Below, one piece after another: positions 1 through 34,274 of a stretch of 34,274 nucleotides of DNA. This stretch comes from a virus, in the IMG/VR virus record IMGVR_UViG_3300025652_000250, positions 1-34,274 of that record, one strand, 5' to 3'. The stretch's first letter is position 1, and every line of letters begins with the position of its first letter. The notes beneath the pieces were generated by a model that was given only the letters and a program-made list of their open reading frames with translations, did not search any database and was not told the origin of the DNA. The translations under genes and the position numbers were made by a program.

Positions 1-450
1 GAAGAAAGCCCCGACTCCCACGATCAATTTGTATCAATTTTAGTTGACATGGGGCTGTCAGCAGAACAAGCTGAAGCTGTGCATACGATGGCTATGGACT
101 TAATCGATGCAGGCGAAGGCGAAGAAATCACAGAAGAAGTGAGTGAAGAAGTAAAAGTCGAGGCTTCACGCCAACGACGAAACCGACGAAGCCGACGAGC
201 AGAATTTTCTCGTGGGCGTTCACAACGGCCTATGCGCCGTGAACTATCCGCTACGGAGGAAATGGAACAACGATTGAATCGCTTGGAGCGTTCTAACCGT
301 GCTTTGCGTAGTCAGCTACGCGAATTCGGGGCAGCACCTGCTACCCGTGGAGTACGAACTGCGCCAACGCAATTGTCTGAATCCAAGGTTAAACCAAATC
401 TTACTGCACCAACAGCGGCTGCATTGGAGATGATTAATAACTACCGATAA
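1..450 (+). CDS. Scaffold-like head assembly protein, left copy (5'-truncated)
   Basis: The reading frame is open from base 1, so the start lies outside the window; the first in-frame Met is at 49. The right copy (28923-29477) is full length at 184 aa. The visible part has an acidic stretch (EGEEITEEVSEEVK), an Arg-rich patch (RQRRNRRSRRAEF), a short coiled coil (MEQRLNRLERSNRALRSQL) and a conserved C-terminal end (ALEMINNYR). Charge segregation, a coiled coil and a place directly before the capsid gene suggest a scaffolding protein, but I recognise no named family. It overlaps the capsid start (TAATG). The first 127 nt are identical to 29028-29154 and the copies diverge after that. Confidence 0.6.
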   Translation, partial: EESPDSHDQFVSILVDMGLSAEQAEAVHTMAMDLIDAGEGEEITEEVSEEVKVEASRQRRNRRSRRAEFSRGRSQRPMRRELSATEEMEQRLNRLERSNRALRSQLREFGAAPATRGVRTAPTQLSESKVKPNLTAPTAAALEMINNYR

Positions 451-1487
451 TGCAACATAATTATCCAACAGTACAAAATCGCGCAGTACGCCGTCGATTT
501 GCTAACGATGGGCCAACGGTTAATCCTACTACTACGTATGCAGGTGTGCTTGCTGCGCCTTTCGTTGCCCCAGCCCTTAAATTGGCTGACACGTTAAACA
601 AAGGTTTTGTACGTCAGATTGACGGAATCCAAAACAAAGCAGTAATTTCTAGCTTGTCATCTACAGGTGTAATTCAAGCTGCTAACTGTGCATGGAATGA
701 CAATGATTCCTTGACTCTTGGTGAGCGCGTTCTTGAACTAACAGACCTTGCAGTTATGGAGGCTTTGTGCCGTGGTACTTTGCTTCCAACGTGGGCAGGT
801 ATGACAGGCGCACGGGAGACTATGACAGCGGGATCACCTGAATTTGTAAACTTCACTATGGCAACCGTTGCAGGCTATGCTGCACAGGGTGTTGAAGTTG
901 GTATTTGGCAAGGAGCAATGACAACAGGTCAAAAAGGCTTTTTGTCAAATGATGGGGTTTTGGATGCCGCAGGATACGCTGCGTCAATTTTAGGCGGTGC
1001 AACGGCTACCAATGAAGAAGTAGTTACGGCTGCTGGTTTTGATGCAGCTAATATTCTTGGTGCAGCTGGTGCATTTTCAGAAGTGTACAACAATGCGCTT
1101 ACAAACTGCCCTGCTATCTTAAATCGTACTGACGTTGCTTTCTACTGCTCGCCAAAAACAGCAGGTTCGTATATGCAAGGTCTGGCTCTTTCAGGTCAGC
1201 AACAAGGTGTGAATTTGCAGTCTACTAACCAAGCGTTTGATACATTGCAATACCTAGGTATTCCAATTTATGTATGTCCTGGAATGTTTGACGATGCTTT
1301 GATTCTTACTTATGTAGAGAACTTGGTAGTAGGTTCAAACTTGAACACGGATTACACGACTGCACAGTACATTGACGATTGGATGTATTCAGGTTCTGAC
1401 TTGGTTAAAATCGCTATGCGATTTGGAACAGGAATGCAGGTAGGAATTCCTGGTGATGTCGTAGTAGGTACTTATACTCTTGCTTAA
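450..1487 (+). CDS. Putative major capsid protein, left copy
   Basis: A 345-aa protein placed after a protease and scaffold-like gene and before virion and portal genes, the usual position of a major capsid protein. It has long hydrophobic and small-residue segments (VLELTDLAVMEALCRGTLL, YAAQGVEVGIW) and a conserved C-terminal part (ENLVVGSNLNTDYTTAQY), as in capsid-like proteins of Bacteroidota phages. The right copy at 29477-30499 is only about 70% identical by eye, much less than its neighbours, with differences spread over the N-terminus and residues ~150-290. The call rests on context and general resemblance, not on a decisive motif. The start ATG overlaps the upstream stop (TAATG). Confidence 0.7.
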   Translation: MQHNYPTVQNRAVRRRFANDGPTVNPTTTYAGVLAAPFVAPALKLADTLNKGFVRQIDGIQNKAVISSLSSTGVIQAANCAWNDNDSLTLGERVLELTDLAVMEALCRGTLLPTWAGMTGARETMTAGSPEFVNFTMATVAGYAAQGVEVGIWQGAMTTGQKGFLSNDGVLDAAGYAASILGGATATNEEVVTAAGFDAANILGAAGAFSEVYNNALTNCPAILNRTDVAFYCSPKTAGSYMQGLALSGQQQGVNLQSTNQAFDTLQYLGIPIYVCPGMFDDALILTYVENLVVGSNLNTDYTTAQYIDDWMYSGSDLVKIAMRFGTGMQVGIPGDVVVGTYTLA

Positions 1488-1497
1488 TAAGTAAAGT

Positions 1498-2037
1498 ATG
1501 GCTTGCGATATTTCAAGCGGACGGATAGTCGATTGTAAAGATCAAGTCGGCGGGATTAGCCGTGTATACATAGGCAACTATGCAGACATGATTAATAACG
1601 CTACGTGGACAGCAGCAACTAACGATACAGTTACTGCTATTGCTGCACAAGATTTTTATCAATTTGACGTTCGCCCCGAAACGAGTTCTATGACAGTCAC
1701 TTACGCAAGTGACCCTGCCGCAGGAACTACGTTTTTCGAACAAGCATTATCTCTGACATTTCAAAAGCTGGATGCTACAGATATTGCTGATATACGCGCG
1801 CTGTGCCAAGGGCGGCCTAACATTTGGGTTGAAGACAACAATTCCAATGTATGGTTGCTAGGTGCAGAATTTGGATGTAACGTAACAGGGGGCAACCTTG
1901 TTACGGGGACATCTTTTGCAGATTTGACGGGTTACACTATTGACTTCTCAGGACGAGAATCAAACCCTGTTTGGATTGCATCACCAGGTTCGGTGGGTAG
2001 TCCATTGAGTGGGGTAACGGGTGTAACTGTATTATAA
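1498..2037 (+). CDS. Conserved virion protein, possibly tail tube-like, left copy
   Basis: 179 aa. It starts CDISSGRIVDCKDQVGGIS and has a beta-rich body with FFEQALSLTFQKLDATD, IWVEDNNSNVWLLGAEFG and a Gly/Thr-rich C-terminal part. From memory, this pattern (CxSGxxxDCxDxVGGI, then a 'neglected Asn/Lys-WLLG' strand) is widespread in Bacteroidota phages next to capsid genes. A role as tail tube or other major structural protein is inference. The right copy at 30510-31049 differs at about 9 of 179 residues, so it is strongly conserved. An intrinsic terminator follows within 20 nt, which fits an abundantly transcribed capsid-plus-structural unit. Confidence 0.55.
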   Translation: MACDISSGRIVDCKDQVGGISRVYIGNYADMINNATWTAATNDTVTAIAAQDFYQFDVRPETSSMTVTYASDPAAGTTFFEQALSLTFQKLDATDIADIRALCQGRPNIWVEDNNSNVWLLGAEFGCNVTGGNLVTGTSFADLTGYTIDFSGRESNPVWIASPGSVGSPLSGVTGVTVL

Positions 2038-2051
2038 ATTTGGGTTAGAGG

Positions 2052-2091
2052 AAAGGGGGGGAAGGTTCTGCTTTGCCTTCCCCCTTTTTTT
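2052..2091 (+). terminator. Intrinsic terminator inside the head gene cluster (left copy)
   Basis: A G-rich arm (AAAGGGGGGGAAGG) and a C-rich arm (CCTTCCCCCTTT) form a strong hairpin with a loop of about 9 nt, followed by a run of seven T. It lies between the virion protein ending at 2037 and the gene at 2110. The same structure recurs at 31070-31108 with base changes in the loop and in the G-run, so it is conserved in both copies. Confidence 0.85.
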
Positions 2092-2109
2092 CATTACAAA
2101 AGACAGAAT

Positions 2110-2472
2110 ATGATACAACTTACCAACGATGCAGGTTACCAATCGTTCTATCTAAAGCTAGATGGATATGACACTACAGCATTAACGAACGTCAGGGTTA
2201 CAATCGTAAATCAATTGACTGGTAAGTTGACGGCTTTTGGATCGGTTACGCCTACGGCAGCCAACGGTAGGTATACGACCATTCAAATCGAAATAGCGGC
2301 TAGTCCAAAACTTGTTGAAGGTTTGTATTTGTTGACAGTCAAAAATGATGCAAACAATGTAACTTACGCTAAACGTCTTGCGTTTGTTTCAAGCACACCT
2401 GCCTTTGAAGAATCGACATACACGCCGTATGAAGAAAACGATACAGACGCATACAACGTATACGCACAATGA
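2110..2472 (+). CDS. Small beta-rich conserved phage protein, left copy
   Basis: 120 aa, predicted mostly beta strands (FYLKLDGYD, VRVTIVNQL, GLYLLTVKN, YAKRLAFVS), with a tyrosine-rich C-terminal tail (YTPYEENDTDAYNVY). No enzymatic motif. It is the first gene after the conserved terminator and overlaps the portal start by ATGA. The right copy at 31126-31488 is very similar. I know proteins of this kind from Bacteroidota phage head clusters but cannot assign a function; a small virion or connector accessory is possible. Confidence 0.6.
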   Translation: MIQLTNDAGYQSFYLKLDGYDTTALTNVRVTIVNQLTGKLTAFGSVTPTAANGRYTTIQIEIAASPKLVEGLYLLTVKNDANNVTYAKRLAFVSSTPAFEESTYTPYEENDTDAYNVYAQ

Positions 2473-4442
2473 ATAAGCAGAACTTCTCAATTTTACAGTA
2501 TCAAGCTACTAACGTTCCTCTTTTTCGAGAGAGTCAGAATAAGCTGTGGATTGATATGGGCGTTGACAATCTCTACCCACACTACTTAGAAGAACTTTTT
2601 GCTAGTTCAAGTATGCACGGTGCAATCATTAAAGGCGCAAGCGAAATGATTTATGGTGAAGGCTTGAATGCAATTGGAAAAGATAAACACGTTGACCAAT
2701 GGCTAAAGGTAAATTCTATTTTTGGCGATGGATCGTGTTTAAAGAAAGCTGCCTTTGACCTAAAGCTATACGGTCAATGCTACTTAAATATCATTTGGAG
2801 TCAAGACCGAACTACGGTTAGCCGTGTACACCATTTGCCAGCAGCGACTATCCGATGCGGCATAGCTGACGATGAAGATAATATCCCTTTGTTTTATCAT
2901 AAAAAGGATTGGGACAAACAGCAAGAAGAGCCTTTAGTCATTCCCGCTTTCAATACTAACGATAGAACTGCGCCTTCGCAATGCTTGCATATCAAAATGT
3001 ATACGCCGTTATCGTTTTACTATGGCGCACCCGATTATCAAGCAGGCACAAATTGGGCGCAAATAGCGTCTGATTTATCCGACTACCATCTTTCCACAAT
3101 TTCTCAGGGCTTCTTTCCTAGTACCATTATGTCTTTTTTTGGGGGCGTACCAACAGAAGAAGAACGTGCTGAATTAGAGCGATTAGTTTATAACAAGTTC
3201 GGAGGGGCGAACAACGCAGGTAAAATCTTGATGACGTTTAATGACTCACAAGACACCGCCCCAACTGTTGAAAGTTTTAATATATCCGATGCTCACCAAA
3301 TCTTTGACTATCTAAGTGAGCAATGCGATAAAAAAGTATTGTCAGCGCATAGGGTAACTTCTCCGTTGCTATTTGGTTTGCGCGATACAGGAGGGGGTTT
3401 TGGAAACAATGCTGATGAGATGAAAGAGTCGTATGACTTGTTCTATAACACAGTCATTTTACCTTTTCAACGTCTATTGCTTGACGGCTTACGTCCAGTC
3501 TTTGCAGCGAGTAACGTTACGCTTGAATTGTACTTTACACCTATGAAGCCTGCGTCATTTGTAGACGTAGATAATTTGTTTAATCCTGTAGCAGCAGGCG
3601 ATAGTTCAGATAAAGATGCGAGTTATGATGGCGGGCAAATCGGAAGCGCGGTTGATGTCTTAGTCAAAGTGCAAGAAGGGCTTATTACAGTTGATCAAGC
3701 TAAAGTATTCTTAGTGCAGATGTTGCAATTTACACCTGAAGTAGCAGATGCTTTGTTCAGGGAAGGCGTAGACGCAATCGAAGAAGTACAGAAGGAAGAG
3801 GTACAAGAAGAAGCAATTGCAGAAACGCAGTTAAAAAAAAAAGACTCTGAGTTAAAGAAGCGCATGAGGGCTTTGGATGCAAGGTTGGGCGATGATTACT
3901 ATCACGTAAAATCGGAGGCTGTAGGTAGCGATGGTATTGACGCGCTGTTACACGCTAAAAAACATTTTTTTTACGCGGAATATTCAGACGTAGAAAACGT
4001 TTCTGATTACGGGGATATTATAGGTAGAGATGGCTATCTGTTTGCCGTAAGGTATCGCTACGAAGAAACGGCTACGACACCTGCCCAAAGCAACGAGAGC
4101 AGGGACTTTTGCGTAGACATGATGGATTTATCAAACGCAGGTGTTATCTATCGTTATGAAGACATTGAAGAAATGTATGGTGAGAACGTTGAGTTTTTCC
4201 ATAAGCCTTCGATGCCTTACGATATTTTTGAATGGAAAGGTGGAATTTATTGTCGACACGGTTGGCAGCGGGAAATTTTTATTTACGCTCCTGATGGTGA
4301 GCCGCAAGAAATGGAGATGATAGAAATTGAGGGAAATTGGGATGATGTAATGGAACGAGTTGGAAACAACCCTGACATTGTACAAAAAGGAGAAGAATAT
4401 ATTGCACCGATTGACACACCATCAAGGGGCGCATACAACTAA
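2469..4442 (+). CDS. Portal protein with C-terminal Cys/His domain, left copy
   Basis: 657 aa. Residues ~1-400 look like a phage portal: WIDMGVDNLYPHYLEELF near the N-terminus, an IIKGAS core, the CLKKAAFDLKLYGQCYLNI segment, and the LSAHRVTSPLLFGLRDTGGG region typical of the portal stem and crown. After an acidic, charged linker (~430-470, EEVQKEEVQEE) a separate domain follows, with SRDFC (Cys548) and GGIYCRHGWQRE (Cys595, His597). That resembles Cys/His modules attached to portal or head-morphogenesis proteins of Bacteroidota phages (recalled, not searched). The portal makes the DNA entry/exit ring at one capsid vertex. It lies after the capsid rather than next to the terminase. The right copy is at 31485-33458. 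Confidence 0.85.
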   Translation: MNKQNFSILQYQATNVPLFRESQNKLWIDMGVDNLYPHYLEELFASSSMHGAIIKGASEMIYGEGLNAIGKDKHVDQWLKVNSIFGDGSCLKKAAFDLKLYGQCYLNIIWSQDRTTVSRVHHLPAATIRCGIADDEDNIPLFYHKKDWDKQQEEPLVIPAFNTNDRTAPSQCLHIKMYTPLSFYYGAPDYQAGTNWAQIASDLSDYHLSTISQGFFPSTIMSFFGGVPTEEERAELERLVYNKFGGANNAGKILMTFNDSQDTAPTVESFNISDAHQIFDYLSEQCDKKVLSAHRVTSPLLFGLRDTGGGFGNNADEMKESYDLFYNTVILPFQRLLLDGLRPVFAASNVTLELYFTPMKPASFVDVDNLFNPVAAGDSSDKDASYDGGQIGSAVDVLVKVQEGLITVDQAKVFLVQMLQFTPEVADALFREGVDAIEEVQKEEVQEEAIAETQLKKKDSELKKRMRALDARLGDDYYHVKSEAVGSDGIDALLHAKKHFFYAEYSDVENVSDYGDIIGRDGYLFAVRYRYEETATTPAQSNESRDFCVDMMDLSNAGVIYRYEDIEEMYGENVEFFHKPSMPYDIFEWKGGIYCRHGWQREIFIYAPDGEPQEMEMIEIEGNWDDVMERVGNNPDIVQKGEEYIAPIDTPSRGAYN

Positions 4443-4447
4443 ACAAC

Positions 4448-5032
4448 ATGGCAACTACACTATACATAAGTTCAAGCAAGCTAAAGCGAGATACAGCACT
4501 TGGAAGCACGGTTGATGACAACCTCTTGCAGCCTTACATAAAGATTGCACAGGACAGATGGATTTTACCTGCTTTAGGTACAGAACTAGAAAACAAAATC
4601 AGCGCATTGATTGATGCTGATGAAGTAGCAAATCCTGGTAACGAAGCCTACGCAACGCTTTTAAACGATTACATACAGCCGTGTTTGGTGCAGCTTGCTT
4701 TTACGGAAGTTGCCTATGTAGTGCGTATGAAGTTCGCAAACAATAGCGTAGTAGTAAACGGATCAGAACAAGGTTCTGCCGCAAGCCTTACAGACATTAA
4801 AGTTATTGTAGAGCAATCAAACGAAATCGGTATGTTTTACCGTCAGCGTATGATTACGTATCTTCAGTTTAACAGCGGTTCATTTCCTGAATACACATCA
4901 AATACAGGGGCTGACCTTTCACCATCTCAACGCAATTATTTTGGAGGACTCAACGTGTACCCAAGAATTCCCACGAACAATCAACTCAAAGCAGTTGCAA
5001 CAGCTTTGGGCATTAGATATTACAACGCGTAA
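4448..5032 (+). CDS. Head-tail connector protein, DUF6712-like, left copy
   Basis: 194 aa. The N-terminus ISSSKLKRDTALGSTVDDN is followed by a helical segment (LLQPYIKIAQDRWILPALG) and a long helix around residues 70-100 (NDYIQPCLVQLAFTEVAYV). This is the pattern I recall for DUF6712-type adaptor proteins of Bacteroidota phages, which sit under the portal and connect head to tail. The position right after the portal supports this. The right copy (33464-34048) differs at 11 of 194 residues, so it is strongly constrained while many codons differ silently. Confidence 0.65.
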   Translation: MATTLYISSSKLKRDTALGSTVDDNLLQPYIKIAQDRWILPALGTELENKISALIDADEVANPGNEAYATLLNDYIQPCLVQLAFTEVAYVVRMKFANNSVVVNGSEQGSAASLTDIKVIVEQSNEIGMFYRQRMITYLQFNSGSFPEYTSNTGADLSPSQRNYFGGLNVYPRIPTNNQLKAVATALGIRYYNA

Positions 5033-5061
5033 TCATTTGAAACTTCAGAAATACTTAAACG

Positions 5062-6471
5062 ATGTCAACCAAAGTAACCGACTTAACGGAGTTAGCAGCA
5101 ACGCCTGACAGTACAGACGTTTTACACATTGTAGACGTAGGCGATACTTCAGGAGGATCAGCAGGCACAAGTAAGAAAATTAAGGTCAGCAACCTTTTAG
5201 CTAGTGGGGGCGCGGTTGATTCTGTCAATGGACAAACAGGTGTAGTAGTTCTTGAGATGAATGATATAGATGATGTCAACGCAGCTGCACCTGCGGACAA
5301 TATCGTTTTATCATACGATACGGCTACAAGTAAGTACATAGCCGATACGCGACTAACTACGCTATACACAGAATTTAGAAATGGTACTGCGGTAAATGTA
5401 TATGCAGACGGAACAACTGCAACGCAAGGAAGAATCGAGTTAACGGCTACAGGGGCAAATCTAAAAACAGGCGTAACAGGAATTGACGTTACAGAAACGA
5501 GTCCAGGCGATATAGATTTTACTGTAGCTACGGATGCAACGGGTAGCACAACGTTTACTGCGCTTCACTTAGACGGAACGACAGTTGCAAACGAAGCCAA
5601 TCTAATTGTTAAGCTAGGATGTTTTTTAGCCATTGAAGGTACAAGCAATGCACAGGCTAAATTTCGCAGCACAAATTCAGGCAACACACTATACAACGTC
5701 CCTGCTTCTTCAGGAACTTTAGCTTTAACTAGTGATATTCCAAGCGTACCTGTTGATGATGTAACAGGCGGTACAGGAATTACAGCTAGTCCAACAACAG
5801 GAAACGTAGTTGTTACTTTAGACAACACAGCAGTTACACCAGGTAGTTACACGAGCGCAGATATAACAGTAGATGCACAGGGGCGCATTACGGCAGCAGC
5901 TAACGGAAGCGGTGGGGGCGGTAGCGGAATTAAATTTTCGACAGCGTTCGGTGGGCGGTGGGAATTTTCCACAAGTGAAACAGGCGCAACTAAATGGGTA
6001 AATTTAGGCGGTTACAACGGCATGAGTTTTTATAATTGGACTAATGGTCAAACGGCAACTTTGTCTGCTGACCCACCAACGGTTGGTTCATCTACTTTAA
6101 CTTTAAATTCATATTTCTACGGTAAATATGGGTGGATCACACCTACGGCAGGAACATTAAAAATTAACGCAACCTGTAGTTGGGACACAATGACTGCGGG
6201 TGGGGCTGGTGAGGTTATGGAATGGCTTTGTTTAAAAGTTCCTGGAACTGAGTTAAACGGGACTTTTCAAGGCTCAGTTGCAGGTACTGTTTGTGCTTAC
6301 GGCTCAGTTACTTGTCCATCAAGCAACCCAAATATTAGCCCAAATTCTCTTGCCATTACAGGAGGAAGTGTATCGGCAGGCGATGTTATAATGACATTAG
6401 CACGTTTTAAAAATGCTACATTTACTTCCACACAATATATTCAAAGTAACGTATCATTTACAGTAGAATGA
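5062..6471 (+). CDS. Putative fibre/appendage protein
   Basis: 469 aa. The N-terminus (KVTDLTELAATPDSTDVLHIVD) and a following GTSKKIKVSNLL segment are typical of virion-attached fibre proteins. The middle is Thr/Gly/Asp-rich and repetitive with beta-helix-like short strands (GTLALTSDIP, GTGITASPTTGNVVVTLDN). A Gly/Ser linker at ~285-295 leads to a compact C-terminal beta domain (~295-469), likely the distal head that binds the receptor or aids trimerisation. The partial right copy starts at 34078. Whether it attaches to the tail or the head cannot be read from the sequence. Confidence 0.65.
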   Translation: MSTKVTDLTELAATPDSTDVLHIVDVGDTSGGSAGTSKKIKVSNLLASGGAVDSVNGQTGVVVLEMNDIDDVNAAAPADNIVLSYDTATSKYIADTRLTTLYTEFRNGTAVNVYADGTTATQGRIELTATGANLKTGVTGIDVTETSPGDIDFTVATDATGSTTFTALHLDGTTVANEANLIVKLGCFLAIEGTSNAQAKFRSTNSGNTLYNVPASSGTLALTSDIPSVPVDDVTGGTGITASPTTGNVVVTLDNTAVTPGSYTSADITVDAQGRITAAANGSGGGGSGIKFSTAFGGRWEFSTSETGATKWVNLGGYNGMSFYNWTNGQTATLSADPPTVGSSTLTLNSYFYGKYGWITPTAGTLKINATCSWDTMTAGGAGEVMEWLCLKVPGTELNGTFQGSVAGTVCAYGSVTCPSSNPNISPNSLAITGGSVSAGDVIMTLARFKNATFTSTQYIQSNVSFTVE

Positions 6472-12242: not shown

Positions 12243-12604
12243 AGATACTATGTCCTGCTATACTTGACGGCTACCAACGCAGAAAGGATCGTAGCGTAAG
12301 TTTGCGCTTGCTTACCCAAGAGCAGACGAGCCAAGACCTAATGAACATTGACAGTTTGTTAGACACATTCGGCATACTGTACTTTAGGGCTGATGATTCG
12401 CCTGAAGACAGCGTACCGTTTGAAGAGTTAGACAGCATAGAGTTAGACTTGTACGATAAGAAGAAGACACAGAGCCAAAGGCTACGTGCCGTACTCTACA
12501 AGTTGTACAAGCAAGAGGGAGGGGAAGGAGAATTTAAAGACTACTACAAGGTAAAGACAGAGAAAATCATTGAACATTTTAAAAGCAGATTACAAGATGA
12601 GTAA
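12239..12604 (+). CDS. Conserved phage protein, unknown function
   Basis: 121 aa. It begins KILCPAILDGYQRRKDRSVS, has LLTQEQTSQDLMNIDSLLDT and FGILYFRADDSP, and ends with a helical, basic part (SQRLRAVLYKLYKQEGGEGE). This order is familiar from Bacteroidota phages, between sigma- or CGC-like genes and replication or methylase genes, but no function is known to me. No nucleotide-binding motif is seen. Confidence 0.55.
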   Translation: MKILCPAILDGYQRRKDRSVSLRLLTQEQTSQDLMNIDSLLDTFGILYFRADDSPEDSVPFEELDSIELDLYDKKKTQSQRLRAVLYKLYKQEGGEGEFKDYYKVKTEKIIEHFKSRLQDE

Positions 12605-12950
12605 AGCATCAATTTTAGCGCACGAAGAAATCAAGCCCAAGAAACTATCTATTGAACAACAGATATATTCTTACCTGGAAAACAATGGCGCAACTAGTCT
12701 ACAGATGATTGAGTTTCATTTGGGACTAAAGAATCAAACAGCGTCAGCAAGATTAAGCGAGATGCACGACAAAGGCATAGTATGTTTTGATGCCTACGGT
12801 TCATATCGGGTGACGCATGATGAAAGAGAAAAGAGGGAGGTAGAGTGGCTTCGAATGCGTGACAAATACGAAAAGTGGAAAAAGCAAGGTGTAAAGAATG
12901 GGTGGTTAATTAGTGACTTTGATTCCCGCACCCAAAAAAAAGCGGAATGA
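12597..12950 (+). CDS. Winged-helix protein, putative transcription regulator
   Basis: 117 aa from ATG 12597 (MSKASILAHEEIKPKK). The open frame begins at 12570, but ATG 12597 overlaps the preceding stop in the way typical here. Residues ~25-75 form a winged helix (IEQQIYSYLENNGATSLQM, NQTASARLSEMHDKG, IVCFDAYGSYRVT), MarR/ArsR-like in pattern, followed by a charged helix. The overlap with the methylase (ATGA) puts both in one operon. Confidence 0.55.
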   Translation: MSKASILAHEEIKPKKLSIEQQIYSYLENNGATSLQMIEFHLGLKNQTASARLSEMHDKGIVCFDAYGSYRVTHDEREKREVEWLRMRDKYEKWKKQGVKNGWLISDFDSRTQKKAE

Positions 12951-13942
12951 CACACGCAAGTTTGTTTAGTGGCATTGGAGGCTTTGACCTAGCAGCTCAA
13001 TGGGCAGGGTTTACTAATGTCTTTAATTGCGAGTGGGAAGAATTCCCTCGCAAAGTCCTCAAACACCACTTTCCCAATGCAGAACAATACGCAGACATAC
13101 ACGACTTCGACGCAACTAAGTATAATGGACGAATTGACATTCTTAGCGGAGGATTCCCATGTCAACCGTTTAGCGTTGCAGGAAAGCGAAAGGGATCAGA
13201 GGATGAACGCCACCTGTGGCCTCAGATGCTTAGAGTTATCGGAGAGTGTCAACCCCGTTGGATCGTGGGCGAGAACGTTCGCGGGCTTGTTAGTTGGTCG
13301 GACGGATTGGTACTCGAAACGTGTTACTCTGACTTGGAAAATCTTGGGTACTCCGTCCAATCGTTTATTATTCCAGCTTGTGCCACAAACGCTCCCCACC
13401 GACGCGACAGAGTTTGGATTGTTGCTCACTCCGACAACTTCAGAACCAGTTCACGACTTGGAGAAGTTCAAAGCAAGGATGGAGAAATACCCGAACGGAA
13501 CAACGATGCCAAACCTAGCGACACAAGTACACGGAATGCTCCCAACGCCGACAACGAAGAACGTAACGGGAGGTGCAGTCCAAGTGAACGAGAAAGGCAA
13601 GAGGCAGAACAAAGGGGGGACGGAATTTTCAGCGCAGCTGCACGACTTAGCAAAAAGCGGGATGCTTCCAACACCGACAGCGCAACAAGAACGAGCGAAC
13701 GCATCAATCGACAGGGGAAAGGGGAATTTATCAGACGAAGTAGCAACACGATTCCAGGTGGGTGGGAAGAGTTCCCAACTGTCTCCCCTGTTTGTGGAGG
13801 AGATGATGGGCTTCCCAAAGAACTGGACGGTATCACCCTTCCAAAGTGGAGAAGAGAATCAATAAAAGGATACGGAAATGCCATAGTGCCACAAGTAGCA
13901 CATCGTATATTTGAATCTATCAAAGAGTACGAACACCTGTAA
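12947..13942 (+). CDS. DNA (cytosine-5) methyltransferase
   Basis: 331 aa. It transfers a methyl group from AdoMet to C5 of cytosine in a target site. Motif I (FSGIGGFDLAA, residues 7-17), motif IV with catalytic Cys72 (GGFPCQPFS), motif VI (ENVRG, 109-113), motif VIII (APHRRDRVWIVA, 149-160) and motif X (GYGNAIVPQVA) are present in the right order. Residues ~161-270 are very hydrophilic and R/E/S/N/D-rich, an unusual target-recognition part, and this is where the nested gene (13125-13865) runs in another frame. No restriction partner is nearby, so it is probably an orphan methylase that shields phage DNA. Confidence 0.93.
   Translation: MTHASLFSGIGGFDLAAQWAGFTNVFNCEWEEFPRKVLKHHFPNAEQYADIHDFDATKYNGRIDILSGGFPCQPFSVAGKRKGSEDERHLWPQMLRVIGECQPRWIVGENVRGLVSWSDGLVLETCYSDLENLGYSVQSFIIPACATNAPHRRDRVWIVAHSDNFRTSSRLGEVQSKDGEIPERNNDAKPSDTSTRNAPNADNEERNGRCSPSERERQEAEQRGDGIFSAAARLSKKRDASNTDSATRTSERINRQGKGEFIRRSSNTIPGGWEEFPTVSPVCGGDDGLPKELDGITLPKWRRESIKGYGNAIVPQVAHRIFESIKEYEHL
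13125..13865 (+). CDS. Nested gene in the +1 frame of the methylase, LPTPT-repeat protein
   Basis: 246 aa from ATG 13125 (open frame from 13017), wholly inside the methylase gene in a different forward frame. It has SWARTFAGLLVGRTDWYSKR, LTWKILGTPSNRLLFQL and three repeats LLTPTTSEP / MLPTPTTKN / MLPTPTAQQ (short Pro-Thr segments), then a C-terminal FVEEMMGFPKNWT. I recall this architecture (LTWK..., repeated LPTPTA, final MGFPxxW) from proteins encoded beside or inside phage C5-methylase genes; it is not a shadow-like sequence. Its function is unknown; regulation of, or partnership with, the methylase is only a suggestion. The upstream part 13017-13124 looks like a shadow of conserved methylase codons, hence the later start. 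Confidence 0.65.
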   Translation: MDELTFLAEDSHVNRLALQESERDQRMNATCGLRCLELSESVNPVGSWARTFAGLLVGRTDWYSKRVTLTWKILGTPSNRLLFQLVPQTLPTDATEFGLLLTPTTSEPVHDLEKFKARMEKYPNGTTMPNLATQVHGMLPTPTTKNVTGGAVQVNEKGKRQNKGGTEFSAQLHDLAKSGMLPTPTAQQERANASIDRGKGNLSDEVATRFQVGGKSSQLSPLFVEEMMGFPKNWTVSPFQSGEENQ

Positions 13943-28933: not shown

Positions 28934-29477
28934 CAACCAACATATATTTAAAAAAATGCGTAACAGAAAATTCGCAGAAGACGAGGTAGTCGTTGAAGAA
29001 GAAACTACCGTGACTGAAGAAACCGTGGAAGAAAGCCCCGACTCCCACGATCAATTTGTATCAATTTTAGTTGACATGGGGCTGTCAGCAGAACAAGCTG
29101 AAGCTGTGCATACGATGGCTATGGACTTAATCGATGCAGGCGAAGGCGAAGAAACCACTGAAGAAGTGAAAGAAGAAGTAAAAGTCGAGGCTTCACGCCA
29201 ACGACGAAACCGACGAAGCCGACGAGCAGAATTTTCTCGTGGGCGTTCAGCACGACCAGAGCGTCGTGAACTATCTGTAGAAGATAAAATGGAGCGACGA
29301 TTGAATCGTTTAGAGCGTTCCAACCGTGCTTTGCGTAGTCAGCTACGCGAGTTTGGAGCAGCACCTGCTGCACGTGGTGTACGTACTGCACCTAATGTAG
29401 ATTCTAATTCTACACCAAAGCGAAATGTGAGCGACAGCACACAGGCAGCATTGGACATGATTAATAATTTTAAGTGA
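28923..29477 (+). CDS. Scaffold-like head assembly protein, right copy (complete)
   Basis: 184 aa from ATG 28923, which overlaps the upstream gene by 11 nt; ATG 28956, behind TTTAAAAAA, would give 173 aa and is almost as plausible. Order of parts: acidic region (EDEVVVEEETTVTEETVEE), a helix (VSILVDMGLSAEQAEAVH), acidic segment, Arg-rich patch (RQRRNRRSRRAEF), coiled coil (MERRLNRLERSNRALRSQL), conserved end (ALDMINNFK). Nucleotides 29028-29154 equal 1-127 exactly. As for the left copy, a scaffold role is inference. Confidence 0.6.
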   Translation: MGINNQHIFKKMRNRKFAEDEVVVEEETTVTEETVEESPDSHDQFVSILVDMGLSAEQAEAVHTMAMDLIDAGEGEETTEEVKEEVKVEASRQRRNRRSRRAEFSRGRSARPERRELSVEDKMERRLNRLERSNRALRSQLREFGAAPAARGVRTAPNVDSNSTPKRNVSDSTQAALDMINNFK

Positions 29478-30499
29478 TGAGTAACTATTTAACACGACGA
29501 AGGCAGTTTGCTAATCCCGAATTGAGTCCTGACCCGTCAACTTACGCAGGCGTACAAGCAGCACCTTATGTTGCACCTGCCCTAAAGTTGGCAAATACCT
29601 TGACTAATAACTATGTTCGTCAAATTGACGGCATCCAAAACAAGGCTGTAATTTCTAGCTTTTCTTCTGATACAGGAGTAATCCAAGCTGCAAGCTGCGA
29701 TTGGGCTGATGGCGATAACATGACTCTTGGTGAGCGAGTATTGGAACTTACCGATCTTGCAGTGATGGAGGCTTTGTGCCGTGGTACATTGCTCCCAACG
29801 TGGGCAGGTATGACTGGCGCACGGGAAACCATGACAGCAGGTAACCCTGAGTTTGTTACTTTCTCTATGGCAACGGTTGCAGGATATGCAGCACAAGGAG
29901 TAGAGAACGGAATTTGGACAGGCGGTATGGCATCAGGTCAGAAAGGATTCCTTTCAAATGATGGCGTATGGGATGGTGACGGTTATGCTGCTTCTATCTT
30001 GGGTCTTGCTACTGTAACTGAACAGGTTGTAACAGCAAATGGATTTACGGCAGCAAACATCTTGAAGACTACAGGTGCATTTCATGAAGTTTACCAAAAA
30101 GCAGTAGATACAGTTCCTGCTATTTTGAATAAGCCTGATATTGCTTTTTACTGCAATCCTAAGACAGCAGGAAACTATATGACTGCTTTAGCAATCTCTG
30201 GTTCTTTCCAAGGTGTAAATATGTCAGGAACAAATCAAGGCTTTGAGTCTTTGCAATACTTGGGTATTCCAATTCAGGTTTGCCAAGGTATGCCTGCTGA
30301 TGCTTTGATTTTGACGTACCGTGAAAACTTGGTGGTTGGTTCTAACTTGAACACAGACTACACAACTGCTCAGTACATTGATGCTTGGCAGTTTGACGGT
30401 TCAGACAACATCAAGATTGCTATGCGCTTTGGATGTGGTGTACAGGTAGGTGTTCCTGCTGATTGTGTCGTGGGTGCTTATACTGCCGTAATTGGTTAA
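29477..30499 (+). CDS. Putative major capsid protein, right copy
   Basis: 340 aa from ATG 29477 (a GTG at 29474 is in frame). It shares with the left copy the conserved segments VRQIDGIQNKAVISS, VLELTDLAVMEALCRGTLL, GARETMTAG, and NTDYTTAQYID, but differs in the first ~45 residues and at many places between ~150 and ~290, about 70% identity overall by eye. The start overlaps the scaffold-like stop (TGATG). Probable allele of the same locus in a second strain (see findings). Confidence 0.7.
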   Translation: MSNYLTRRRQFANPELSPDPSTYAGVQAAPYVAPALKLANTLTNNYVRQIDGIQNKAVISSFSSDTGVIQAASCDWADGDNMTLGERVLELTDLAVMEALCRGTLLPTWAGMTGARETMTAGNPEFVTFSMATVAGYAAQGVENGIWTGGMASGQKGFLSNDGVWDGDGYAASILGLATVTEQVVTANGFTAANILKTTGAFHEVYQKAVDTVPAILNKPDIAFYCNPKTAGNYMTALAISGSFQGVNMSGTNQGFESLQYLGIPIQVCQGMPADALILTYRENLVVGSNLNTDYTTAQYIDAWQFDGSDNIKIAMRFGCGVQVGVPADCVVGAYTAVIG

Positions 30500-30509
30500 T
30501 TAGTATAAG

Positions 30510-31049
30510 ATGCCGTGCGAAATTTCAAGCGGACGGATAGTCGATTGTAAAGATCAGATTGGTGGAATTAGCCGTGTATTCATAGGCAACTATGCAGACA
30601 TGATTAATAACGCTACGTGGACAGCAGTAACTAACGATACAGTTACTGAGATTGCCGCACAAGATTTTTATCAATTCGACGTTCGACCAGAAACAAGTTC
30701 TATGACAGTCACTTACGCAAGTGACCCTGCCAATGGGACTACGTTTTTCGAACAAGCATTGTCTTTGACATTCCAAAAATTGGATGCTACAGATATTGCT
30801 GATATACGCGCGCTGTGCCAAGGAAGACCAAACATTTGGGTTGAAGACAACAACTCTAACGTGTGGTTGCTAGGTGCAGAATTTGGATGTAACGTGACGG
30901 GTGGAAACCTTGTTACAGGCACATCCTTTGCAGATTTGACGGGTTACACTATTGACTTCTCAGGACGAGAATCCAACCCTGTATGGATTGCATCACCAGG
31001 TGCAGTCGGTACTCCATTGAGTGGGGTTACAGGTGTAACAGTCTTATAA
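30510..31049 (+). CDS. Conserved virion protein, possibly tail tube-like, right copy
   Basis: 179 aa, differing from the left copy at about 9 positions (for example A2P, D4E, V17I, Y24F), mostly conservative, while silent changes are frequent at the DNA level. That indicates purifying selection. The same terminator follows. Confidence 0.55.
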   Translation: MPCEISSGRIVDCKDQIGGISRVFIGNYADMINNATWTAVTNDTVTEIAAQDFYQFDVRPETSSMTVTYASDPANGTTFFEQALSLTFQKLDATDIADIRALCQGRPNIWVEDNNSNVWLLGAEFGCNVTGGNLVTGTSFADLTGYTIDFSGRESNPVWIASPGAVGTPLSGVTGVTVL

Positions 31050-31069
31050 ATTTGTTTGTGGGTTAGATG

Positions 31070-31108
31070 AAAGGGGGGGGAGGTTTTGCTTTGCCTTCCC
31101 CCTTTTTT
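31070..31108 (+). terminator. Intrinsic terminator inside the head gene cluster (right copy)
   Basis: AAAGGGGGGGGAGG pairs with CCTTCCCCCTTT across a TTTTGCTTTG-like loop, then six T. It keeps the stem of the left copy (2052-2091) despite changes in the loop and G-run. Confidence 0.85.
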
Positions 31109-31125
31109 AATGAAAGGAAAAGAAC

Positions 31126-31488
31126 ATGATACAGCTTACTAACGATTCAGGTTACCAGTCATTCTATCTAAAACTAGATGGGTATGATTCTACTAGTATA
31201 ACTAATGTTCGAGTTACGATAGTAAGCCAATTAACGGGGAAGTCTACAAATTTTGGATCAGTCACGCCAACAGCATCAAACGGTAGGTACACAACGATTC
31301 AAATACAAATAGCAGACAGCCCGAAAATCGTTGAAGGTTTGTATCTATTGACAGTTAAAAATGATGCAAACAATGTAACTTACGCAAAGCGACTTGCGTT
31401 TGTTTCAAGTACACCTGCGTTTGAAGAAGCAACCTATACACCGTATGAAGATACAGATGGAAACGCCTATAATGTTTACGCACCATGA
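31126..31488 (+). CDS. Small beta-rich conserved phage protein, right copy
   Basis: 120 aa, equal in length to the left copy. Differences cluster in surface-like positions (STNFGSVTPTASNG versus LTAFGSVTPTAANG) and in the Tyr-rich tail. It overlaps the portal start (ATGA). Function unknown. Confidence 0.6.
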   Translation: MIQLTNDSGYQSFYLKLDGYDSTSITNVRVTIVSQLTGKSTNFGSVTPTASNGRYTTIQIQIADSPKIVEGLYLLTVKNDANNVTYAKRLAFVSSTPAFEEATYTPYEDTDGNAYNVYAP

Positions 31489-33458
31489 ATAAGCAGAACT
31501 TATCAATTTTACAATATGAAGCTACTAACGTCCCTCTTTTTCGAGAGAGTCAAAACAAGCTGTGGATTGATATGGGTGTTGACAATTTATACCCACATTA
31601 CTTAGAAGAATTGTTTGCTAGTTCGAGTATGCACGGTGCAATCATTAAAGGCGCAAGCGAAATGATTTACGGTGAAGGCTTAAACGCAATTGGTAAAGAC
31701 AAACACGTAGAGCAATGGCTAAAGGTTAATTCTATTTTTGGTGATGGTACTTGTTTAAAGAAAGCAGCGTTTGACCTAAAGCTATACGGTCAATGTTTCT
31801 TGAACATCATTTGGTCGCAAGACAGAACTACTGTAAGTCGAGTATACCATTTGCCTGCTTCTACTATGCGTTGTGGTGTTGCTGATGATGAAGATAATGT
31901 GCCTTTGTTTTATCATAAAAAGGATTGGAGCAAGCAACAAGAAGAGCCTTTAGTTATTCCTGCCTATAACACTAATGATCGGACAGCAGCATCTCAGTGT
32001 CTACAGATTAAAATGTATACACCTTTGTCGTTTTATTATGGCGCACCTGATTACCAGGCAGGTACAAATTGGGCGCAGATAGCATCCGACTTATCAGATT
32101 ACCATCTCAGCACAATTTCTCAAGGCTTCTTTCCTAGCACTATAATGAGTTTCAACAGCGGTGTGCCGACTGAAGAAGAACGTGCTGAACTTGAAAGGTT
32201 AGTGTACAACAAGTTTGGGGGAGCAAGCAATGCAGGTAAAATCTTGATGACCTTTAATGACTCACAAGAAACAGCACCTACCATTGAAAGTTTCAACTTA
32301 ACTGATGCGCACCAAATTTTCGATTACCTCAGCGAACAGTGTGATAAAAAAGTATTGTCAGCGCATAGGGTTACAAGTCCATTGCTTTTTGGATTGCGTG
32401 ATACAGGAGGAGGATTTGGAAACAATGCCGACGAGATGAAAGAATCCTATGACTTGTTTTACAACACAGTCATTTTGCCTTTCCAACGTCTATTACTTGA
32501 TGGGTTACGACCAGTGTTTGCAGCAAGTAACATTACGCTTGAATTGTATTTTACACCTATGAAGCCTGCATCGTTTGTAGAGGTAGACAATCTGTTTGAC
32601 CCTGTACGAGCAGGGGATACTTCAGACAAAGATGCTAGTTACAACGGAGCGCAGATTTCAAGTGCTGTTGATGTGCTAGTTAAGGTGCAAGAAGGCTTAA
32701 TTACTACCGATCAAGCTAAAGTATTCTTAGTGCAGATGCTTCAATTCACACCTGAAGTAGCGGATGCTTTGTTTCAAGAAGGCGTAGACGCAATCAAAGA
32801 AGTTCAAAAGGAAGAGGTTCAGGAAGAAGCAATTGCAGAAACGCAGTTAAAAAAAAAAGATAGCGAATTACAAAAGCGTATGCGAGCAATAGACGCTAGG
32901 CTTGGCGATGATTACTATTACGTAAAATCTGAGTTAGTCGAAGATGATTATCTCGATGAAATGCTACACGCTAAGAAGCATTTGTTTTATGCTGAATACT
33001 CAAATGTAGAAGATGTTTCTGATTACGGAGATGTAATTGGGAAAGATGACTACCTGTTTGCAGTAAGGTATCGATACGCAGAAACAGCCACAACGCCTGC
33101 ACAGAGTAATGAAAGCAGGGATTATTGCGTAGAGATGATGGAACTGTCAGATGATGGGGTTATCTATCGCTACGAAGACATACAAGATATGTATTATGAA
33201 AACCCTGAATTCAATCATCCTGGCACTTCAGGTTTTGACAAGTTTACTTTAAAAGGCGGCATCTACTGTAGGCACGGATGGCAAAGAGAAATCTTTATTT
33301 ACGCTCCTGACGGAGAGCCAAAAGAAATGGAGATGATAGAAATAGAGGGGAATTGGGATGATGTAATGCGTAGGGTTGGAAACAATCCTGATATAGTACA
33401 GAAGGGAGAAGAATACACAGCACCTATTGATATGCCTAATAGGGGTGCATATAACTAA
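31485..33458 (+). CDS. Portal protein with C-terminal Cys/His domain, right copy
   Basis: 657 aa, same length as the left copy. The portal core (residues 1-430) is nearly identical to the left copy, while residues ~480-595 have many changes (for example MPYDIFEWKGG versus TSGFDKFTLKGG). The Cys/His motif GGIYCRHGWQRE and the SRDYC segment are both kept, which supports that they are functional. Confidence 0.85.
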   Translation: MNKQNLSILQYEATNVPLFRESQNKLWIDMGVDNLYPHYLEELFASSSMHGAIIKGASEMIYGEGLNAIGKDKHVEQWLKVNSIFGDGTCLKKAAFDLKLYGQCFLNIIWSQDRTTVSRVYHLPASTMRCGVADDEDNVPLFYHKKDWSKQQEEPLVIPAYNTNDRTAASQCLQIKMYTPLSFYYGAPDYQAGTNWAQIASDLSDYHLSTISQGFFPSTIMSFNSGVPTEEERAELERLVYNKFGGASNAGKILMTFNDSQETAPTIESFNLTDAHQIFDYLSEQCDKKVLSAHRVTSPLLFGLRDTGGGFGNNADEMKESYDLFYNTVILPFQRLLLDGLRPVFAASNITLELYFTPMKPASFVEVDNLFDPVRAGDTSDKDASYNGAQISSAVDVLVKVQEGLITTDQAKVFLVQMLQFTPEVADALFQEGVDAIKEVQKEEVQEEAIAETQLKKKDSELQKRMRAIDARLGDDYYYVKSELVEDDYLDEMLHAKKHLFYAEYSNVEDVSDYGDVIGKDDYLFAVRYRYAETATTPAQSNESRDYCVEMMELSDDGVIYRYEDIQDMYYENPEFNHPGTSGFDKFTLKGGIYCRHGWQREIFIYAPDGEPKEMEMIEIEGNWDDVMRRVGNNPDIVQKGEEYTAPIDMPNRGAYN

Positions 33459-33463
33459 ACGAC

Positions 33464-34048
33464 ATGGCTACTACACTATATATTAGTTCAAGCAAGCTAA
33501 AGCGTGACACGGCTTTAGGAAGCACCGTTGATGATAACCTGTTACAGCCTTACATTAAGATTGCTCAGGACAGGTGGATTTTGCCAGCTTTGGGTACGGA
33601 ATTAGAAAACAAGATTAGCGCATTAATTGACGCTGACACAGTAGGAGATGAAGGTAACGAAGCCTACGCAACTCTTTTAAACGACTACATACAGCCTTGT
33701 TTAGTGCAGCTTGCTTTCACAGAAGTTGCCTACGTAGTACGTATGAAGTTTGCAAACAATAGCGTAGTAGTAAACGGATCAGAACAAGGTTCAGCCGCAA
33801 GCCTTACGGACATTAAAGTCGTAGTAGAACAGTCAAATGAAATTGGTATGTTTTACCGTCAGCGGATGATTACGTACCTTCAGTTCAACAGCGGCTTATT
33901 TCCTGAATACACGTCAAATACTGGTGCTGATCTTTCACCTTCTCAACGAAACTACTTTGGAGGACTCAATGTTTACCCACGGATTCCCACTGACAATCAA
34001 ATCAAGTCAATTGCAACAGCTTTGGGCATTAGATATTACAACTCGTAA
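33464..34048 (+). CDS. Head-tail connector protein, DUF6712-like, right copy
   Basis: 194 aa; 11 differences from the left copy, mainly near residues 59-63 (EVANPG versus TVGDEG) and 173-180. Same function as the left copy. Start sits 5 nt after the portal stop. Confidence 0.65.
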   Translation: MATTLYISSSKLKRDTALGSTVDDNLLQPYIKIAQDRWILPALGTELENKISALIDADTVGDEGNEAYATLLNDYIQPCLVQLAFTEVAYVVRMKFANNSVVVNGSEQGSAASLTDIKVVVEQSNEIGMFYRQRMITYLQFNSGLFPEYTSNTGADLSPSQRNYFGGLNVYPRIPTDNQIKSIATALGIRYYNS

Positions 34049-34077
34049 CCATTGGAAACTACAGAAATACTTAGATA

Positions 34078-34274
34078 ATGTCAACGAAAGTAACAGATTT
34101 AACGGAGTTACAAGCAACACCTGATGATACAGATGTACTGCACATTGTAGATGTAGGAGATAATACAGGAGGCACAGCAGGGACAAGTAAAAAAATACAG
34201 GTAAGCAACCTGTTAGCTAGTGCAGGATCAGTTGATTCTGTCAATGGACAAACGGGTGTAGTAGTTCTTGATGT
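34078..34274 (+). CDS. Fibre/appendage protein, right copy (3'-truncated)
   Basis: The first 65 codons are present, starting MSTKVTDLTELQATPDD and continuing to the end of the window. They match the N-terminus of the left copy (5062) with a few substitutions. The rest lies outside. Confidence 0.6.
   Translation, partial: MSTKVTDLTELQATPDDTDVLHIVDVGDNTGGTAGTSKKIQVSNLLASAGSVDSVNGQTGVVVLD

Follow-up and report, generated by a model that had tools for sequence, protein, structure and literature searches.

The C5-cytosine DNA methyltransferase (MTase) gene described here appears to encode both halves of a single split and probably multispecific enzyme in two overlapping reading frames, a reading to which we assign a probability of about 0.83. 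The gene is found in a viral sequence of 34,274 nucleotides (IMG/VR record IMGVR_UViG_3300025652_000250), which over its whole length is referred to as the window. This reading is founded on the dual coding of the locus, the distribution of motif IX between the frames, the existence of in-frame equivalents, the two-ORF relatives, the modularity of the cassettes, and the precedents set by M.EcoHK31I and the Bacillus phage enzymes. The main frame would give rise to a catalytic subunit in which motifs I-VIII, for SAM binding and catalysis, are followed by a disordered linker and motif X. The +1 frame would give rise to a specificity subunit, with its own translation start near MTase codon 44, composed of a core domain, tandem target-recognition cassettes of 30-45 amino acids, and motif IX. 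The core domain probably docks on the catalytic subunit, and the two chains would then assemble as a heterodimer into one enzyme. Each cassette would recognise one DNA target, and by exchanging cassettes the phages could change their set of targets and so methylate their own DNA against the changing restriction enzymes of their hosts. The features of the locus are as follows.

12947..13942, + strand: C5-cytosine DNA methyltransferase, proposed catalytic subunit, 331 aa (PF00145, phrog_363, Foldseek/HMMER)
13148..13189, + strand: MTase motif IV GGFPCQPFSVAGKR, with the catalytic Cys (sequence; conserved in alignment A2)
13271..13285, + strand: MTase motif VI, ENVRG (sequence; conserved in alignment A2)
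13388..13435, + strand: MTase motif VIII region NAPHRRDRVWIVAHSD (sequence; alignment A2)
13433..13771, + strand: hydrophilic linker of the MTase frame, in place of a recognition domain (pLDDT; amino acid identity between cassette copies)
13871..13900, + strand: MTase motif X, YGNAIVPQVA, 3' of the nested stop (alignment A2; fourfold divergence)
13017..13865, + strand, +1 frame of the MTase: nested ORF, proposed specificity subunit (ORF list, PHROG_1008, relatives, fourfold sites)
13203..13418, + strand: nested N-terminal core MNATCGLRCLELSESVNPVGSWARTFAGLL...LTWK...NRLLFQL...ATEFG, lying over MTase motifs IV-VIII (alignment A1; fourfold constraint)
13419..13535, + strand: nested cassette A LLLTPTTSEPVHDLEKFKARMEKYPNGTTMPNLATQVHG (cassette clustering; type A in 33 of 49 loci)
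13536..13661, + strand: nested cassette E MLPTPTTKNVTGGAVQVNEKGKRQNKGGTEFSAQLHDLAKSG (cassette clustering)
13662..13778, + strand: nested cassette B MLPTPTAQQERANASIDRGKGNLSDEVATRF... (cassette clustering)
13779..13829, + strand: nested motif IX LSPLFVEEMMGFPKNWT (hhalign to the single-chain actinophage motif IX; absent from the MTase frame)

The methyltransferase gene and its nested frame

The MTase gene follows an upstream ORF (12570-12950) whose stop overlaps the MTase start codon (ATGA). In profile searches its product matches PF00145 (E=3e-50) and phrog_363 (E=4.9e-77), and its catalytic part also matches M.HaeIII and M.HhaI over around 165 columns with both Foldseek and HMMER. The frame contains motifs I-VIII and X, including I, IV (PCQ) and VI (ENV), which places the protein within the C5 MTases of PF00145, and the catalytic motifs form conserved columns in alignment A2. 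In C5 MTases, motifs I-VIII are followed by the recognition domain and then by motifs IX and X. Neither a recognition domain nor motif IX is found between VIII and X on the MTase chain of the window, and motif IX is missing from this frame across 124 family loci. Residues ~167-291 are instead predicted by AlphaFold to be disordered, with pLDDT values mostly of 30-45, in keeping with the unusually hydrophilic stretch that an earlier, sequence-only reading of this DNA had pointed out. An antisense ORF at 13468-13923 has no family match in Pfam or PHROGs.

The nested ORF remains open for 282 codons, or 290 from stop to stop. That it encodes a real protein was put forward in the sequence-only reading, and the claim holds: the product belongs to PHROG_1008 (E=2.8e-24, residues 4-273 aligned to positions 5-281 of 329), although it has no Pfam or NCBIfam match, and the elements described for it (WARTFAGLL, LTWK..NRLLFQL, three L(L/P)TPT repeats and MGFPKNW) are all present. 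The product size of 246 aa given in that reading corresponds to an inner ATG at 13125; a start at ATG 13077, yielding 262 aa, is likelier than this or the first open codon at 13017. ATG 13077 is favoured because constraint on fourfold-degenerate sites begins at about MTase codon 46 and because an ATG at MTase offset 130-148 is common to the relatives; for the start at 13125, the constraint would begin too early. Since divergence fluctuates among the fourfold bins next to the start (codons 52-57 give 0.49 and codons 70-75 give 0.62, for example), ATG 13077 is put forward as a best estimate only, and it has no obvious ribosome-binding site.

The PHROG_1008 label, 'DNA methyltransferase', hides the fact that the family represents the +1-frame product of C5 MTase genes and not a catalytic domain. 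Similarly, in locus L184 (KT997847, 2294-3130) the nested ORF is annotated as 'putative cytosine-specific methyltransferase' beside a truncated MTase ORF, and the two labels may share a cause, in that the nested ORF was the one picked by the annotators.

Selection on the two frames

An open second frame of this length could, in principle, arise as a by-product of biased codon usage or composition in the MTase gene and have no product at all. The repeats lend this idea something, since LPTPT and ADTDS interconvert by a shift of frame and repeats in one frame therefore force repeats in the other. However, when the MTase protein was held fixed and its codons were redrawn from the codon usage of the window in 20,000 trials, none of the simulated genes kept the +1 frame open over 13077-13862, and the longest simulated run was 232 codons, compared with the 290 observed. 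The reverse simulation, with the nested protein held fixed, likewise left the MTase frame open in 0 of 20,000. Canonical MTases, of which 30 were examined, are without the nested ORF. Moreover, fourfold sites are conserved only within the overlap, and the DNA of the cassettes varies like coding sequence when read in the nested frame but not when read in the MTase frame, as described below. A by-product is thus scarcely credible.

Stops in the nested frame were looked for among the relatives. In the viral set, made up of the best 80 of the 206 relatives found in a scan of viral contigs, the MTase and nested frames are both open, and in the same relative register, in 80/80 loci. The same dual-open arrangement is found in almost all of 57 loci from bacterial and archaeal assemblies, mostly of Bacteroidota; the exceptions (L123, L130, L133 and L135) have the appearance of disrupted, rearranged or truncated copies. 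Bacterial copies with broken or shortened frames (L123, L130, L133, L136 and L137) may represent decay, sequencing errors or rearranged variants, and in L133 motif X is found in the nested frame. Among sampled genomes of three phyla, PHROG_1008 matches occur in 17/299, 4/299 and 3/296, and these fall in the +1 frame of C5 MTase ORFs, barring weak or degraded cases (L160, without a nested match, and L161, with neither). The nested ORF is also found in phages of Paenibacillus, Lacticaseibacillus, Klebsiella, Escherichia, Synechococcus and Bacteroides. A contig labelled as a Heimdallarchaeota MAG (MEHH01000174, L084) encodes a nested C-terminal part that is 94% identical to that of the window over residues 178-262, and is probably viral DNA that ended up in an archaeal bin.

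Silent sites were compared in 49 dereplicated loci, using pairs with >70% identity and the fourfold-degenerate sites of the MTase frame. Upstream of the overlap, 54% of comparisons at these sites differ. The figure falls to 25% across motifs IV-VIII, is lowest in the variable region (10%) and at the nested end (11%), and stands at 59% further downstream. In finer bins, divergence falls at about MTase codon 46 and recovers just beyond codon 306, where the nested frame stops, reaching 0.64 at codons 310-314. This is the lowering of silent variation that a dual-coding locus, as proposed in the sequence-only reading, ought to display.

The cassettes allow the two frames to be compared more directly. 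Between copies of the same cassette, the three nested codon positions differ by 0.167, 0.108 and 0.458, and nested fourfold sites by 0.529, which is about the unconstrained level. Amino acid identity between such copies is 82.5% in the nested frame vs 47.5% in the MTase frame; the backbone identities of L079 in this comparison are spurious owing to a misplaced MTase start. The codon-position pattern and the two identities therefore mark the nested frame as the selected protein in the cassette region, in agreement with the earlier suggestion that constraint on this part of the MTase gene comes chiefly from the other frame. Selection in this region acts almost only on the nested frame, with the MTase frame as a passenger that merely stays open to reach motif X. 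By the measures of comparative sequence analysis, the nested protein is confirmed as real and the locus as dual-coding.

Motif IX, the cassettes and their in-frame equivalents

The distribution of motif IX was followed in the 124 family loci that have a detectable motif X. The motif is absent from the MTase frame in 124/124, the pattern hits FENFPT, ISFPK and FDNFPT having been judged spurious, and the same 124/124 have an (M/L)MG(F/Y)P motif towards the end of their +1 ORF. Thirty canonical C5 MTases from the sampled genomes display the reverse: their +1 runs extend for 28-120 aa with no motif IX, and a IX-like sequence precedes motif X in frame in 30/30, with 14 recognised by pattern and 16 by eye (for example, RLTPRECARLMGF). 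The nested segment SQLSPLFVEEMMGFPKNWTVSPF aligns to motif IX of the single-chain actinophage enzymes with E=4.4e-7 and a probability of 92.7 by hhalign, an alignment of 23 columns only.

Between the core and motif IX, the nested proteins are modular. The 49 proteins compared contain some 35 cassette types, a count that is approximate because boundaries were set by a text pattern and types by clustering at 60% identity. Each protein has 2-4 cassettes (three in 27, two in 21 and four in one), each cassette is 30-45 aa long and opens with L(L/P)TPT, and the order in the window is A-E-B. One cassette type can occupy different slots, and a reversed order of two types was not seen in the 49 loci. 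Cassettes are exchanged between closely related backbones, and their turnover is rapid: of 298 backbone pairs with at least 80% identity, just 2 share the same cassette set, and L068 and L073 have backbones that are 99.1% identical and middle cassettes that differ. The relatives of the window thus possess the tandem exchangeable modules of multispecific phage C5 MTases. The window departs from that class in that its modules are not on the catalytic chain, the cassettes being found in the +1 frame.

The same parts are found in other arrangements in 80 actinophage-type loci, which were collected by a tail search with Rhodococcus phage ReT1v-2 (L185), where motifs IX and X both lie in the MTase frame. 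ORF parsing of these loci gave 19 in which the catalytic motifs, at least two LPTP cassettes, IX and X are all in one ORF, 24 in which the catalytic motifs, IX and X are in one ORF and the cassettes in the +1 ORF, and 18, several of them identical copies and a few perhaps frame errors, in which the catalytic motifs are in a separate ORF. In L222, for example, one frame reads GSLFSGAGG...GGFPCQ...ENVRG...VFIVAH, then five LPTP cassettes, then PRLTAAFPEWMMGWPAGWVTE...IGNGVCPQQ. Such single-chain relatives have tandem modules between VIII and IX, as multispecific MTases do. In L216, the catalytic ORF stops just past motif VIII (...RRERLFFLLTDSSNI), and the core, two cassettes, IX and X are encoded by a +1 ORF that overlaps it; further two-ORF cases, each independent, are L241 and L254, with a catalytic ORF that ends after VIII and a +1 ORF with cassettes, IX and X. 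The catalytic half of these two-ORF relatives is therefore no complete enzyme alone.

Cassettes also match across frames. The +1 cassette LPTPTTGNATGTNERRGG of L185 is 78% identical to the in-frame cassette LPTPTVGNATGTNERRGG of L207 (E=4e-17), and +1 cassettes of Bacteroidota (L087, L098 and L128) match in-frame actinophage cassettes with E values of ~1e-10. Given these matches and the in-frame equivalents, the LPTP cassettes therefore sit in the slot of the recognition domain.

These arrangements bear on the possibility that the nested product is a separate functional protein, such as an anti-restriction or regulatory factor, that overprints the MTase gene and acts outside the enzyme. With the nested profile, a search of PDB sequences gave no hit at E values of up to 10, AlphaFold with 48 sequences gave only a poor model of the nested product (pLDDT 50.8, pTM 0.25), and Foldseek of this model against the PDB gave no match at E<=0.001, such that no solved or predicted structure ties the product to a recognition domain; the bare annotation of the nested ORF as 'g50 internal gene' in phage Redbud is also consistent with a separate protein. 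However, the nested ORF carries the very motif IX that is missing from its partner in every family locus, single-chain relatives have the cassettes and motif IX in frame, placed between VIII and X, the +1 ORF of two-ORF relatives also carries motif X, and no nested-type protein was found apart from an MTase in the loci of this analysis. We regard a separate protein as unlikely.

The actinophage loci with a single ORF (L198, L200, L207, L208, L222 and others) retain, beside the complete in-frame set, a +1 ORF that encodes the core and, as a rule, 1-2 cassettes. In 15/19 of these loci, exactly 6 nt separate the end of this +1 ORF from the first LPTP cassette read in frame. The cassettes seem to be handed between frames at a fixed junction. 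The persistence of this +1 ORF counts against a simple split-enzyme model, which leaves it unexplained.

The fixed 6-nt junction could also be used for a change of frame, as would be needed if programmed ribosomal frameshifting from the MTase start joined motifs I-VIII to the cassettes and motif IX in a single fusion. Yet conservation of the +1 frame begins at about MTase codon 46 and extends over motifs IV-VIII, which such a fusion needs in the main frame, and motif X would require a second shift back. Because of this conservation across motifs IV-VIII, a frameshift fusion is ranked below independent initiation of the nested frame, and we consider it highly improbable.

In two actinophage loci (L208:535-1371 and L263:616-1257), the +1 frame of an insertion in the MTase gene reads ...LAYVAGLIDGEGCVHL..., by eye resembling a LAGLIDADG homing endonuclease; an HNH insertion, likewise out of frame, has been described in phage methylases (PMC11855218) and is brought to mind by these loci.

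Known split and multispecific methyltransferases

The small chain of M.EcoHK31I is reported by Lee et al. (1995) to be encoded in another frame inside the gene for the large chain, and the nesting of the small-chain gene in the window follows the same plan. In M.EcoHK31I, motifs I-VIII and X are found on the large chain and motif IX only on the small chain (PMC3404938). The window shares with this M.EcoHK31I/M.EaeI type of two-polypeptide enzyme (YGGCCR) the location of motif IX solely on the small chain and of X on the large one. It differs, in a comparison of descriptions, in that the large chain of M.EcoHK31I is said to hold a predicted target-recognition domain (TRD), whereas that of the window has a disordered linker, and in that the nested family of the window has 2-4 exchangeable cassettes.

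In the multispecific MTases of Bacillus phages, modules of ~40 aa are found between motifs VIII and IX. The enzymes of SPbeta, phi3T and rho11s have several TRDs in one MTase, giving protection against many restriction systems (PMC12707154). The cassettes of the window are proposed to be, in the same way, recognition modules in a row. However, the Bacillus phage enzymes are single chains in one frame, whereas the modules of the window lie in the other frame and would belong to a separate polypeptide. M.AquI (CYCGRG) represents a further type of split enzyme, in which the first chain has motifs I-VIII and the second IX-X (PMC3404938). The actinophage two-ORF loci have this same division. In the window, by contrast, the catalytic chain retains motif X and the second gene lies entirely within the first.

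Searches of the open-access literature turned up no account of this nested family. An overview of Paenibacillus phages lists two cytosine MTase genes consecutively and, at that place in the text, without comment. What appears to be new, provisionally and relative to the open-access literature, is the existence of tandem, swappable modules in an alternative frame, in phages of several phyla, with the modules found in either frame. Beyond the window itself, we lean towards a wider system of combinatorial specificity, in which phages and prophages of several phyla would keep exchangeable recognition modules in the alternative frame of an MTase gene and swap them as dual-open cassettes that are usable from either frame, so that one segment would set the methylation repertoire.

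If the split-enzyme reading is correct, a large class of 'DNA cytosine methyltransferase' annotations would describe half an enzyme, with the half that chooses the target hidden in the other frame. This would explain why these MTases are without motif IX and a recognition domain, and would make any prediction of specificity from the catalytic chain alone misleading for this class. For methylation engineering, the cassettes would also be a natural supply of ready-made recognition modules, and the locus would be a rare case in which selection switches between two frames along one gene.

Finally, the two ends of the window resemble one another. Positions 1-5255 and 29028-34271 are ~82-92% identical at the nucleotide level by blastn and have matching series of ORFs, with no exact terminal repeat, and may reflect either a strain-chimeric assembly of a circular genome or a duplication.
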